47,322 nucleotides of DNA from a virus. The stretch lies in the IMG/VR virus record IMGVR_UViG_3300030380_006479, positions 1 to 47,322 of that record; one strand, given 5' to 3'. A program made the translations under genes and the position numbers. This document shows, one piece after another, positions 1,839 to 6,455 of this stretch. The notes under the pieces are model-generated. The model was not told the origin of the DNA. It worked only from the letters and a program-made list of their open reading frames with translations, and ran no database searches. The stretch's first letter is position 1, and each line of letters starts with the position of its first letter.

Positions 1839-1846
1839 TATTTAGA
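1839..1846 (-). promoter_or_regulatory. Late-promoter-like box for gp4
   Basis: Read on the minus strand the box is TCTAAATA, identical to the divergent gp54 box. It ends 28 bases before the gp4 ATG. The matching arrangement on both strands supports real divergent late promoters. Confidence 0.5.
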
Positions 1847-2556
1847 TGGTTCGTCCTAGAAAAATAGCTGATATAAAACCGATACTGACAAATGTAGCAC
1901 AAACATCTCATTATCAGGTGTTTTTTGATGGTTTATCACCAGACCTCTTTAAATTTCTTGGAACAAAGGGAGTCAACAGGAGATTTATAACAGAGAACGC
2001 AGGTTTATTGTGTAGTCAGGCATCTATACCTGGTAGTTCTTTAGCTACAACAGATATATTTGGAAATTTCATAGGAGTTCAAGAAAAATTTGCTCACACA
2101 AGAATATTCACTGAATTGTCGTTAGAATTCTACGTTGATAAAGATTACAAGATGATTAAATTTTTTGAACATTGGATAGATTATATTGCAAGTGGATCAG
2201 AAAAAAATGCACCGATTGATAAGAGAGATTTAGGATATTTCTATCGTATGAGATATCCAAGAGGAAATTCTGGTTATAAATGTGATAAGACGAAAATTGT
2301 TAAGTTCAACATTGACTATCGATCAGAGATCGAGTATACTTTCTTTGGATTGTTTCCGATAAATATGTCATCTACATCAGTCCAATACGGAAGCTCTGAT
2401 ATTCTTCGATTAAATGTGACATTTAGTTATGAGAGATATATTGCAGGTAAAGAAACTAGTTTATCATTTAATAGAAATAGAAGTGAAAATCTTAAGCAAG
2501 GAGTCGTCACAGGTAGAACTCTTACTGAAGATGGTCAAACAATAGAATTCTTTTAG
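1846..2556 (+). CDS. 54: Baseplate tail-tube initiator gp54
   Basis: A 236-residue protein whose layout fits the tail-tube fold shared by gp19 and gp54. There is an early 'CSQASIPGSSLATTDIFG' loop, a 'RIFTELSLEFYVDKDYKMIKFFEHWIDYI' helix region and a late 'STSVQYGSSDILRLNVTFSYERYI' strand pair. In T4 gp54 forms the ring between hub and tube. Because gp48 lies just across the divergent promoter and gp26 and gp27 follow, gp54 is favoured over the tube protein gp19, which is usually grouped with sheath and portal genes. The start follows the late-promoter-like box with no clear Shine-Dalgarno sequence. gp19 remains the main alternative. Confidence 0.72.
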   Translation: MVRPRKIADIKPILTNVAQTSHYQVFFDGLSPDLFKFLGTKGVNRRFITENAGLLCSQASIPGSSLATTDIFGNFIGVQEKFAHTRIFTELSLEFYVDKDYKMIKFFEHWIDYIASGSEKNAPIDKRDLGYFYRMRYPRGNSGYKCDKTKIVKFNIDYRSEIEYTFFGLFPINMSSTSVQYGSSDILRLNVTFSYERYIAGKETSLSFNRNRSENLKQGVVTGRTLTEDGQTIEFF

Positions 2557-2673: not shown

Positions 2674-3393
2674 ATGCCATTACCAAAAATTGCCACCCCT
2701 ACTTATGAATTGGTTTTACCGTCAAGTGATCGAAAAATAAAATATCGACCATTTTTAGTAAAAGAGGAGAAAATTTTAATAATTGCGATGGAATCTGAAG
2801 ATATGAAACAGATTACAACTGCAATTAAAACTGTTATCAACAATTGTATTTTGTCAAGGGGAATCAAAGTTGAAAAATTATCTACTTTTGATATTGAATA
2901 TCTTTTTCTTAATATAAGGGGAAAATCTGTCGGTGAAAATGTTGAAGTTCTTATCACTTGTCCTGATGATGAAAAAACGCAAGTGCCTGTAATTATTCCA
3001 TTAGATGAAATACAAATCAAAAGAGATCCTAAACATAATAAGGATATCAAATTAGATGATAATTTGACAATGAGAATGAAATATCCATCTATGAATGAAT
3101 TTGTCAAAACCAATTTCAACTTGGATGATGATATATCAGTTGAACAATCATTTGATTTAATAATTTCATGTATTGATCAGATATATAATGAGGAAGAATC
3201 ATGGAATACATCAGATTGTACAAAAAAAGAAATGACAGAATTTCTTGACCAATTAAATTCTAAACAATTTAAGGATGTAGAACAATTTTTTGATACCATG
3301 CCTAAATTATCTCACACGATCAAGGTTACGAATCCAAAAACTAAAGTTGAAAATGAAATAGTTCTTGAAGGGTTATCATCTTTTTTCGAGTAG
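2674..3393 (+). CDS. 26: Baseplate hub assembly protein gp26
   Basis: 239 residues, resembling the T4 base-plate protein family to which gp26 belongs (Pfam T4_baseplate). Seen here are the opening 'LPKIATPTYELVLPSSDRKIKYRPFLVKEEK', 'CILSRGIKVEKLSTFDIEYLFLNIRGKSVGE', a 'CPDD' strand region and 'DEIQIKRDP'. In T4 gp26 acts in hub assembly rather than as a major structural part. It directly precedes a 58-residue ORF and the tape-measure-like gene, the same order as tail-assembly chaperone genes in other tailed phages. Its last codons contain a slippery heptamer (3381-3387) that could fuse it to the next ORF. Confidence 0.8.
   Translation: MPLPKIATPTYELVLPSSDRKIKYRPFLVKEEKILIIAMESEDMKQITTAIKTVINNCILSRGIKVEKLSTFDIEYLFLNIRGKSVGENVEVLITCPDDEKTQVPVIIPLDEIQIKRDPKHNKDIKLDDNLTMRMKYPSMNEFVKTNFNLDDDISVEQSFDLIISCIDQIYNEEESWNTSDCTKKEMTEFLDQLNSKQFKDVEQFFDTMPKLSHTIKVTNPKTKVENEIVLEGLSSFFE
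3366..3393 (+). other. Candidate -1 ribosomal frameshift site
   Basis: T TTT TTC (3381-3387) is an X XXY YYZ heptamer in the gp26 reading frame, one sense codon before the gp26 stop (3391-3393). A -1 shift continues through CGA GTA GGT into the ATG of the 58-residue ORF with no stop codon. The SD-like sequence GAAGGG (3366-3371) ends nine bases upstream, a spacing similar to the stimulator in E. coli dnaX. The motif and open frame are seen directly; that shifting occurs is inferred. Confidence 0.55.
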
Positions 3394-3395
3394 GT

Positions 3396-3572
3396 ATGGC
3401 TCATACCAATTTGGAGTCATACTTTAAAATTAACTTTGCCTTGATGCAACATCATAAATACTCATTAACTGAGATTGAAAATATGATTCCTTGGGAGAAA
3501 GATGTATATGTCGCTCTTCTGGAACAATATATAGAGGAAGAAAATCTAAAGCAAAAACAACAACGTGGCTAA
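3396..3572 (+). CDS. Small tail-assembly chaperone-like protein (gp51-like position)
   Basis: A 58-residue ORF whose ATG begins two bases after the gp26 stop and whose end overlaps the next gene by eight bases. The peptide includes FALMQHHKYSLTEIENMIPW and a charged helical tail. The compact helical 'MPWxxxxxYxxLLEQ' pattern is typical of downstream segments of tape-measure chaperones (the lambda T position). It could correspond functionally to T4 gp51, but I cannot show homology. It is in the -1 frame relative to gp26, so it may be made alone, as a gp26 fusion, or both. No strong ribosome binding site precedes its own ATG. Confidence 0.6.
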   Translation: MAHTNLESYFKINFALMQHHKYSLTEIENMIPWEKDVYVALLEQYIEEENLKQKQQRG

Positions 3573-5196
3573 GTCAAGTATCTCAAAAGACTCATTTTTT
3601 AACGTTTCTGGTAATCCAAATTTGGATGCTGCGGATACTGGTGTTGATCCATCCACAGGTAGAATTTTAACAAAAAAAGAAAGAATATCAATATTTAAAA
3701 ATAGAAAAATAAATGCAAATAAGGTATTTGGTAAGACTAACTCTAAACTATCAAAGGTGGGTAAAATAACAAAACCACTTGCACAATTCGGTGCGATAGT
3801 TAAAAGTGATAGTGCAGATAAGGGATCTTCAGGTGGTGCTCAACCTCAAAATAAGTTAATTGAAACTCTTTCGAAACAGATATCAAATAATTCAAGAAAA
3901 ATAACCATATTAAAGAACATTGTAAAATCAAATATTGAAAAAGTATCAAAAATATTAAAAGGTGATGCCGAGAAGGAAAAAAAGGAACAAAGAGAAGATC
4001 AAAGACAAACACAACTAGAAGATGAAAAGGATAAAAAGAAGAAAAAAGAGGGTCTTTTAGAGGGTGTAGGAAAGTCTGTTGGTAAGAGTTTACTTAAACC
4101 TGTTGAAGCTGTGGGAAAAACTGTTAAAGGTATTATGGGAAGATTGGTTGATGCATTTTCAGCTCTTTTCATGGGATTTGTTGCCAATAAAGGTATAAAA
4201 ATGTTTCAGGCAATGATGTCTGGTGATACTGAGACTTTTAAGAAGATGAGAAATCAAATAATAGGTTCACTTGCAATAGCAGGTGGTATATTTTTGGCAT
4301 TGAATGGTGGATTATTAGCACTTCCTGGTATTATTTCGACAGTTGCTGGTGCGATAATACCAGTTATGACTGCGATCATAGGATTTTTAGCTAGTCCTGC
4401 TGGATTGATAGCTTTGGGTATAGCTGCTGGTATTGCAACAATTTTTGCGATAAAAAAAATAATTCATAAATCAAGGGGTGGAGATGTTTTTGCAAATGAA
4501 AGGAAAGAGATAAAGGGGGAATTGGAAGAAGCGGGTGTCAGAAATACAAATGCATTTATGAATTTTCTTAAAATGGAATACAAGGGTAAAAGATATCTTG
4601 TGAAGAGAGACGGTAAAGACAAGAGACTCAAATTTGATGAATTAACAGAAGAAGAAAAAGCTGCGGTTATAAAAGAGGATGCCGCCACAACAAATCTAAA
4701 TGATTTAAATAAACAAAGACAGAGGGAAATAAGAGAATCAAATAAAAAAATAGACAGAGAGAGAAAACCAGGTTATAAACAACTATATGATTCATTAAAA
4801 AAACCTGGTCATCCCTTAGCGGATGCTCCTGATCCTAAAGATTATCCAGAATTGCGGGCTTATATTGCAGAAACAAATAGATTGAAGAAAGCTGCAGAGT
4901 CAAAAATTCAACAAAAATATGATAAAAAAGTTGTCACTATATCTGGAGATGATGCTATTAATACCACCCTTAATACTAACGGAAATGATTCAGTAATCAA
5001 TTCAAATGTTACAAAAACGGGAGTCACAACTCTTAATGACGTTGAAGCAGAAGTAAAAGTAGTCAATAATGGAGGAACTGGAGGAGAAATCCCCACTGAT
5101 GAAGGTAATGCGACTAATAACATTAGAGTGAATTCAAAGAATCGTGACAATTCGGAAGTTGATTATACTGAAATGCAATATAACGCAGGAGGTTAA
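3565..5196 (+). CDS. Tape-measure-like tail protein (gp29 position)
   Basis: 543 residues with a GTG start that overlaps the preceding ORF; an in-frame stop just upstream rules out a longer form. Roughly: residues 1-90 polar, 95-165 strongly helical and lysine/glutamate rich (coiled coil), 230-300 a long hydrophobic glycine/alanine-rich region (about three membrane-type segments), 300-460 charged helices, and a low-complexity Asn/Thr/Gly tail. Coiled coil plus an internal hydrophobic patch directly after chaperone-type genes is the tape-measure signature. T4 gp29 is about 590 residues and sits in this part of the hub pathway. No direct sequence match to gp29 is claimed. Confidence 0.6.
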   Translation: MAKSSISKDSFFNVSGNPNLDAADTGVDPSTGRILTKKERISIFKNRKINANKVFGKTNSKLSKVGKITKPLAQFGAIVKSDSADKGSSGGAQPQNKLIETLSKQISNNSRKITILKNIVKSNIEKVSKILKGDAEKEKKEQREDQRQTQLEDEKDKKKKKEGLLEGVGKSVGKSLLKPVEAVGKTVKGIMGRLVDAFSALFMGFVANKGIKMFQAMMSGDTETFKKMRNQIIGSLAIAGGIFLALNGGLLALPGIISTVAGAIIPVMTAIIGFLASPAGLIALGIAAGIATIFAIKKIIHKSRGGDVFANERKEIKGELEEAGVRNTNAFMNFLKMEYKGKRYLVKRDGKDKRLKFDELTEEEKAAVIKEDAATTNLNDLNKQRQREIRESNKKIDRERKPGYKQLYDSLKKPGHPLADAPDPKDYPELRAYIAETNRLKKAAESKIQQKYDKKVVTISGDDAINTTLNTNGNDSVINSNVTKTGVTTLNDVEAEVKVVNNGGTGGEIPTDEGNATNNIRVNSKNRDNSEVDYTEMQYNAGG

Positions 5197-5198
5197 AT

Positions 5199-6455
5199 AT
5201 GGCAATAGCAGCTATAGCAAAAATAGGAGCAAAAATCGCAGCAAAATCTGCAGGTGCCATGAAAGGTGTTGCAAAGAGCACTAAAACATTTGCAAAATCT
5301 GCAGCTAAAAATGCAAAAATAAAAAAACGTGTGAGAGTGGCGGGAAAAAAATTCATGAAAAAGAGAAGAGAGAGAAAAAGAAGATTAGAGCAGGAGGAGG
5401 CACTAGAGCAACAAAAAAATCAAAGAAAATCTGAAAGAAAAAAAGTTGGAGGTGCTGGTGGAGGTATTCTACAAAGATTAATAGCATTCTTACAAGCTAT
5501 TTTGTTTGGATTTATATTCAATCAACTTCCAAAAATAATAAAATTTATTAAAAAAATAATAGAAACAATACAAAATATTGTAGAAAAATTTAAAAATTTC
5601 TTTAATAGCATAAAAGGTTTTTTTCAAGATGTTAGTAAGGTGATTAAAAAAGCTTTTAATGCCATAAAAAATATAACCTTTGATAATATAAAAGAAAAAA
5701 TTATGGGCGCATTTGATAAAATCAAAGATGGATTTATCAATATGAAAGATAAATTGGGTGATGCTGCCAAAAATTTCTTAGGAATGAAGAAAAAACCGAA
5801 AAAAGAGATAAAAACTGAATTAGACAAGAAAGAGGTGACAGAAGAAAAAAATATAGCGTCTGTTGCTGACATATCATCAACCATGTCTAAACAAAGTGAA
5901 GATTGGAATAATACTATAAAATCAATTGAAAAGGCAGGTACAGGTGTCGATATTGTTGGTAAGGAAAATTTAGAAAAATCAATTGACCCATCTACACCTG
6001 AAGGAGTGAAAGAAGTAGCGGTACAAAAGAAAAAGGTTGATGCTGCGTTTGATAAAAATAATATGAGTGGCACCACGAATACAGGCACTGTAAATACGTC
6101 AAATACGGGTGGTGGTGCAAAAACTATGAATATGAGCACTGAAAGTGGTAATGGTGCTGTTAATACAGGAGGTGTTGTAAATGGAAATACAGGAGGTGTT
6201 GTAAATGGAAATACAGGAAAAAAATCTACAGTTACGAGCACTGGACAAAATTCTAATTTAATAAAATCTAATAACAATCAGGTAAATACAGGTAAATTCA
6301 CTCCACAAAGAAAACCTAAACAAACAATTGTGATGGTAAATAATAACGGATCACAATCAGGTGGAACAAATAACACTGGAAAAAAAAGTGAAATTATTAT
6401 TGTCAAGAGTGGCAATACTGCAAACGATCAACTAAATATGGCACTAACAGAATAA
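5199..6455 (+). CDS. Second tape-measure-like structural protein
   Basis: 418 residues with a good AGGAGG ribosome binding site. The N-terminus is alanine/lysine rich and very basic (residues 1-85). A hydrophobic amphipathic region follows (about 85-190: LQRLIAFLQAILFGFIFNQL, then repeated IKKI/FKNFF helices). The second half is Asn/Gly/Thr-rich low complexity with an 8-residue tandem repeat. Organisation mirrors the upstream 543-residue protein (basic coil, hydrophobic core, disordered Asn/Thr tail), suggesting a paralogue or a split partner. It ends one base before gp27. A role inside the tail tube or hub is inferred from context only. Confidence 0.5.
   Translation: MAIAAIAKIGAKIAAKSAGAMKGVAKSTKTFAKSAAKNAKIKKRVRVAGKKFMKKRRERKRRLEQEEALEQQKNQRKSERKKVGGAGGGILQRLIAFLQAILFGFIFNQLPKIIKFIKKIIETIQNIVEKFKNFFNSIKGFFQDVSKVIKKAFNAIKNITFDNIKEKIMGAFDKIKDGFINMKDKLGDAAKNFLGMKKKPKKEIKTELDKKEVTEEKNIASVADISSTMSKQSEDWNNTIKSIEKAGTGVDIVGKENLEKSIDPSTPEGVKEVAVQKKKVDAAFDKNNMSGTTNTGTVNTSNTGGGAKTMNMSTESGNGAVNTGGVVNGNTGGVVNGNTGKKSTVTSTGQNSNLIKSNNNQVNTGKFTPQRKPKQTIVMVNNNGSQSGGTNNTGKKSEIIIVKSGNTANDQLNMALTE
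6168..6215 (+). repeat. 24-base tandem repeat, two copies
   Basis: Two identical 24-base units encode GGVVNGNT twice within the disordered tail of the 418-residue protein. Exact DNA identity suggests a recent slippage duplication. Confidence 0.85.

Follow-up and report, generated by a model that had tools for sequence, protein, structure and literature searches.

A conserved slippery heptamer and a candidate -1 frameshift cassette at the gp26-gp51 junction of a T4-like cyanophage

The gp26 locus and its -1 frame

The window, the whole 47,322 nt (47 kb) virus record analysed here, represents part of the genome of a T4-like cyanophage. It carries a gp26 gene preceded by a tail tube-like gene and running into a small -1 frame coding region assigned to gp51. 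The features of the locus are the following:

1846..2556 (+): tail tube-like gene just upstream of gp26 (phrog_45 tail tube, E 4.3e-37; PF23849, E 8.8e-19)
2674..3393 (+): gp26, short isoform (TAC-N or 'G'), T4_baseplate family, 239 aa (PF12322, E 3.5e-74; phrog_150, E 2.8e-81)
3367..3372 (+): SD-like element GAAGGG, candidate upstream stimulator, 8 nt before the heptamer
3381..3387 (+): slippery heptamer T TTT TTC (T TTT TTN in 207/209 relatives)
3381..3572 (+): -1 frame C-terminal extension ('gp51' or T domain; phrog_634, E 8.5e-29; phrog_150 positions 239-278, E 7.7e-6)
3391..3393 (+): zero-frame stop TAG, one sense codon (GAG) past the heptamer (distance 3 nt in 160/207)
3392..3402 (+): hairpin 5' arm AGGTATGGCTC, which begins 4 nt past the heptamer and holds the gp51 ATG
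3414..3424 (+): hairpin 3' arm GAGTCATACTT (pair 3401-3415 covaries)
3565..5196 (+): 543-aa gene, candidate tape-measure protein by position and length, overlapping the end of the T domain

The window gp26 passes the curated cut-off of PF12322 (gp26/gp51) with 249.6 bits vs. 24.5. Its final codons are TCA TCT TTT TTC GAG TAG, and T TTT TTC therefore stands in the X XXY YYZ phase needed for -1 slippage. An initial annotation of this DNA had described an in-frame heptamer one sense codon before the gp26 stop, GAAGGG upstream of it and a -1 frame open into a 58-residue ORF, all of which are present at the positions listed. Read in the -1 frame, the junction is TTT TTT CGA GTA GGT ATG GCT CAT, encoding FF-RVG-MAH, and remains open to 3572. 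The 58-aa ORF lies in this frame at 3396-3572 with its ATG at 3396, and matches phrog_634, the 'baseplate hub assembly catalyst' gp51; in the records of relatives the T domain is annotated as a separate gene. As the window T domain also matches positions 239-278 of phrog_150, some members of the gp26 family carry it in one chain. The predicted gp26-gp51 fusion is 299 aa. Among 26 gene ends checked in the window, gp26 alone has a long -1 ORF after a slippery heptamer that lies in frame within the final 60 nt.

The succession of a tail tube-like gene and gp26 resembles the lambda V-G-T-H type of order. The initial annotation placed the pair directly before a tape-measure-like gene, and a long gene does follow at 3565-5196. 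Its designation as tape measure comes from position and length, its product having no significant match to a tape-measure family in a profile search. Searched against PHROGs for tape-measure identity, the genes downstream of gp26 fall into unknown families or give weak matches. The 418-aa gene directly after it (5199-6455) has a weak tape-measure match (phrog_167, E 0.003) and is the rival candidate.

Conservation of the heptamer and the reading phase

Loci containing gp26 were drawn from IMG/VR and named phages, yielding 209 unique loci that span phages of cyanobacteria, Methylophilales, Pseudomonas, Stenotrophomonas, Citrobacter, Vibrio, Aeromonas and Rhizobium. In all 81 loci of a first set, T TTT TTC is followed by a single sense codon and then a stop. 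Exactly one in-frame T TTT TTN lies within the last 60 nt of gp26 in 207/209 loci and the T domain is in the -1 frame in 205/209, which bears out the check proposed in the initial annotation. The heptamer is also kept in 31/32 representatives below 60% identity. The predicted architecture, two products sharing an N-terminal part with the longer one extended in the -1 frame, is therefore retained in these same 205 loci. From heptamer to stop the distance is 3 nt in 160/207 loci, 0 in 25, 24 in 20, and 6 in two. Where it is 24 nt, the position of the heptamer relative to the T domain is unchanged. In these 20 IMG/VR loci (L199, L201, L203, L214, L226 and others) the additional codons extend into a GCCUC/GAGGC stem.

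Homologues with another phase or lacking the heptamer had been named as evidence against frameshifting, and a clear deviation is found at only 3/209 loci. In S-SCSM1 (MK867354.2; L097 3709-3740) the heptamer is kept and an insertion of about 11 nt places the T domain in the +1 frame, reflecting either natural uncoupling or a sequencing error. A similarity search with S-SCSM1 returns its own record and the RefSeq copy at full identity, the next matches being at ~71%. In the set, T TTT TTN is missing from gp26 only in the Vibrio phages K448 (L089 4540-4600) and K475 (L090 4690-4740). Their gp26 ends carry CTT TTC or CTT TTT with an overlapping stop and ATG, so that their T domain may be produced by reinitiation or one-tRNA slippage. 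In Yut3 the -1 frame is open and the domain is too divergent for the profile.

A one-base indel from faulty assembly or sequencing would look the same in a single genome if it had split a normal fused gene. This explanation has a negligible probability, being refuted by the recurrence of the same phase in 205/209 unique loci from many phages and metagenomes.

The conserved residues at the end of gp26 are x-F-F, and the relevant test is therefore whether codons are held beyond what the amino acids demand. All 31 representatives have XXT TTT, with a probability of about 1e-12 given the amino acids and the codon use of each gene; as the representatives are still related by descent, such codon probabilities are guides rather than exact values. 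Other FF pairs in the same genes are written T TTT TTY in 3/242 cases. A chance heptamer was considered and is ruled out by the 207/209 recurrence, the codon constraint and the uniqueness among the window gene ends.

Stimulator-like elements and the gp51 start codon

The Glu-Gly codons upstream of the heptamer favour GAGGG or GAAGGG in relatives. Across 86 representatives, pairing with the anti-SD (16S tail) is stronger than after synonymous resampling (p = 4e-8), and the same comparison in eight control windows elsewhere in gp26 is non-significant in seven and reaches p = 0.008 in the eighth. The best spacing between the SD-like element and the heptamer is 7–9 nt in 78/86 representatives.

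Downstream of the heptamer the window hairpin folds with -14.7 kcal/mol. The mean folding z just past the heptamer is -1.8 to -1.9, vs. -0.4 to 0.1 in windows 60–300 nt upstream. The window's clade has an 11-pair stem 4–5 nt downstream of the heptamer, with 90.6% of cells paired and a covariation score matched by 0/500 shuffles. Pair 3401-3415 (alignment columns 21/35) is UA in 29 sequences, GC in 26 and AU in 8, with about 10 TA<->GC switches on the gp26 tree. These switches link a synonymous Ala position with one that alters the amino acid, pointing to RNA-level selection. RNAalifold applied to all 68 clade sequences returns only a 3-pair consensus because a few of them are without the stem, and the named 11-pair stem was counted separately. 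A clear hairpin is confined to the window's clade and some others; further clades have the different GCCUC/GAGGC stem or no clear one.

The T run also raises the prospect that the polymerase rather than the ribosome slips, yielding the fusion by transcriptional slippage. The site is a T homopolymer and 7/31 representatives have runs of 7–8 T; however, exactly 6 T are found in 24/31, and bacterial slippage has been reported for tracts of 9 A or T (PMC5009743). Ribosomal slippage accords with the X XXY YYZ phase, SD-like element and hairpin, making a transcriptional origin highly improbable.

If gp51 were only an independent small gene, translated by termination-reinitiation at ATG 3396, the heptamer would be incidental to a conserved Phe-Phe end. 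GenBank records do annotate gp51 as an independent gene, and the window ATG is 2 nt past the stop, with the ATG overlapping the stop in nt-1, RHph_I46 and K475. However, 83/207 loci (17/31 representatives) have no ATG, GTG or TTG among the 14 codons that open the -1 frame, and there the complete T domain is therefore only available through fusion unless a rarer start codon is used. The conservation of the heptamer far exceeds the amino-acid need, the window ATG is buried in the hairpin and T4 gp51 is a full-length fused protein. Together these make an independent gp51 very unlikely. A combined outcome, in which frameshifting gives the fusion and reinitiation gives a free T-domain peptide in the ATG-bearing clades, draws on the 100/207 relatives that keep an ATG within these 14 codons. 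It is also unlikely, though less so, given that any start is lost in 17/31 representatives, so that the free peptide is dispensable, and that the ATG is within the stem in the window's clade.

The deposited records of pf16 and Melnitz-1 begin gp51 at an internal ATG and those of S-CAM4 and Aeh1 omit it. Loci in which gp51 is missing or cut to an internal ATG, with no ATG at the true junction, include L095 3714-3893, L087 4717-4884, L083 4732 and L093 3750. Cyanomyoviruses rank among the most common viruses of the ocean. In their records gp26 and gp51 appear as two genes, gp51 often being absent or shortened to an internal ATG, and the comparison points to a fusion as the true long product.

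Ribosomal frameshifting is the preferred reading, and every comparative test made supports the programmed -1 frameshift that the initial annotation had proposed. The locus very probably encodes the tail assembly chaperones of a T4-like cyanophage, with a -1 slip on T TTT TTC giving a gp26-gp51 fusion beside short gp26. Most ribosomes would end at TAG 3391, releasing the 239-aa short form. A minority, with the SD-like sequence behind them and the hairpin ahead, would slip one base back on the heptamer and continue to the 299-aa long form. Sequence comparison establishes the heptamer, the phase, the stimulator-like elements and the presence of both forms in T4; slippage in infected cells and the ratio of short to long form are inferred.

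T4 and other systems with two chaperone forms

T4 serves as a natural control, as its genes 26 and 51 are separate and divergent. T4 gp26 spans positions 14-235 of phrog_150 and T4 gp51 positions 13-280, and T4 gp51 matches phrog_634 too; T4 gp51 therefore has the long-form architecture and T4 gp26 the short-form one. It follows that the cyanophage "gp51" is most probably the -1 tail of a long isoform and not an independent gene. T4 has a third product of the family in gene 26' (L082 4803-5090), which is annotated with an internal start in gene 26.

Tevenvirinae carry gp51 as a fused gp26 paralogue. Among the T4-type loci examined, gp26 mostly keeps the FF, written TTC TTT or TTC TTC, and T TTT TTN is present in 0/11 complete gp26 genes. 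Amino-acid constraint on the conserved FF, the other candidate origin of the heptamer, is ruled out by this and by the codons used for FF elsewhere. Searching whole records for PF12322 gives two genes each for T4 and RZH and a single gene for each of 14 further phages, which, apart from S-SCSM1 and K475, combine the heptamer with the -1 frame. Where a second fused copy is present the heptamer has been lost, so frameshifting and duplication replace each other. In a tree of gp26 and gp51 each Tevenvirinae gene forms one group, and the branches are too long to place frameshift and duplication in order.

A broader interpretation can be offered tentatively, at somewhat less than even confidence. 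Kyanoviridae gp51 would be no gene but the tail of a long chaperone made by a three-part -1 cassette, whose hairpin both stimulates the slip and hides a leftover AUG, and Tevenvirinae would have swapped this cassette for duplication. On the same tentative footing, two genes expressed separately would be able to replace a fixed frameshift ratio. Related phages that arrive at the same pair of chaperone forms along different routes, frameshifting or gene duplication, constitute a natural experiment, making the need for a fixed short:long ratio testable.

Functionally, T4 gp26 and gp51 are hub assembly chaperones, with gp51 being required for assembly but absent from the particle (PMC3004832). In a PDB search with an AlphaFold2 model of the window gp26 (pLDDT 87.5), chains of the HK97 chaperone 2OB9 come at rank 2 (E 0.82, probability 0.28) and rank 6 (E 1.4, probability 0.21), and a T4-type gp51 model matches the 'tape measure chaperone' of phage Moon (E 0.003). 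These models are no more than weakly suggestive of a chaperone fold. No significant fold or sequence link was found between gp26 and lambda G or HK97 gp13, a sequence search of solved structures with the gp26 profile gave nothing useful and an NCBIfam search gave no credible match.

Vladimirov, Gautam and Davidson (2022; Virology 566:9-15) reportedly identified the tail assembly chaperones of T4-like phages. PRFect (PMC10885494) refers to this work for T4-like phages that have a short copy and a long fused copy in place of frameshifting, and PMC12846349 does so for poly-T -1 signals in the TAC-N genes of T4-like phages. The link from gp26/gp51 to lambda G/GT drawn in the initial annotation is right; the annotation was aware of no described case at the T4 gp26 position, but going by these citing papers the link is not new. 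As they present it, the two-gene T4 form was largely described in 2022 and the G/GT logic at the gp26 locus is not new in principle. No paper on frameshifting at gp26 in cyanophages was found among open papers, and the breadth, stimulators and duplication control may be unpublished.

Comparable signals are known elsewhere. TAC genes of Vandenendeviridae and Andersonviridae, families other than that of this phage, likewise have a poly-T slippery motif for -1 frameshifting at the TAC-N 3' end and a T domain routinely annotated as a separate hypothetical gene, although their motif is GTTTTT (PMC12846349). E. coli dnaX also has a homopolymeric heptamer, preceded by an SD-like element and followed by a hairpin, with A6 in place of the T6 seen here. 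All parts of a dnaX-type cassette, namely SD-like element, X XXY YYZ heptamer and RNA structure a few nt downstream, are present at the gp26 junction. The shifted product of dnaX is the short one (PMC5009743), whereas at gp26 it is the long one.

The closest likeness in organisation is to lambda G/GT (and P2 E/E'), where a short protein is likewise accompanied by a rarer -1 extension and encoded with a tail tube gene on one side and a long gene on the other. The lambda heptamer differs from T TTT TTC. The lambda G/GT model agrees with the long and short pair, with its location downstream of a tail tube gene and upstream of a long one, and with the role of T4 gp26/gp51. By analogy with lambda G and GT, the two forms would act as chaperones of the tape-measure protein and would recruit subunits of the tube.
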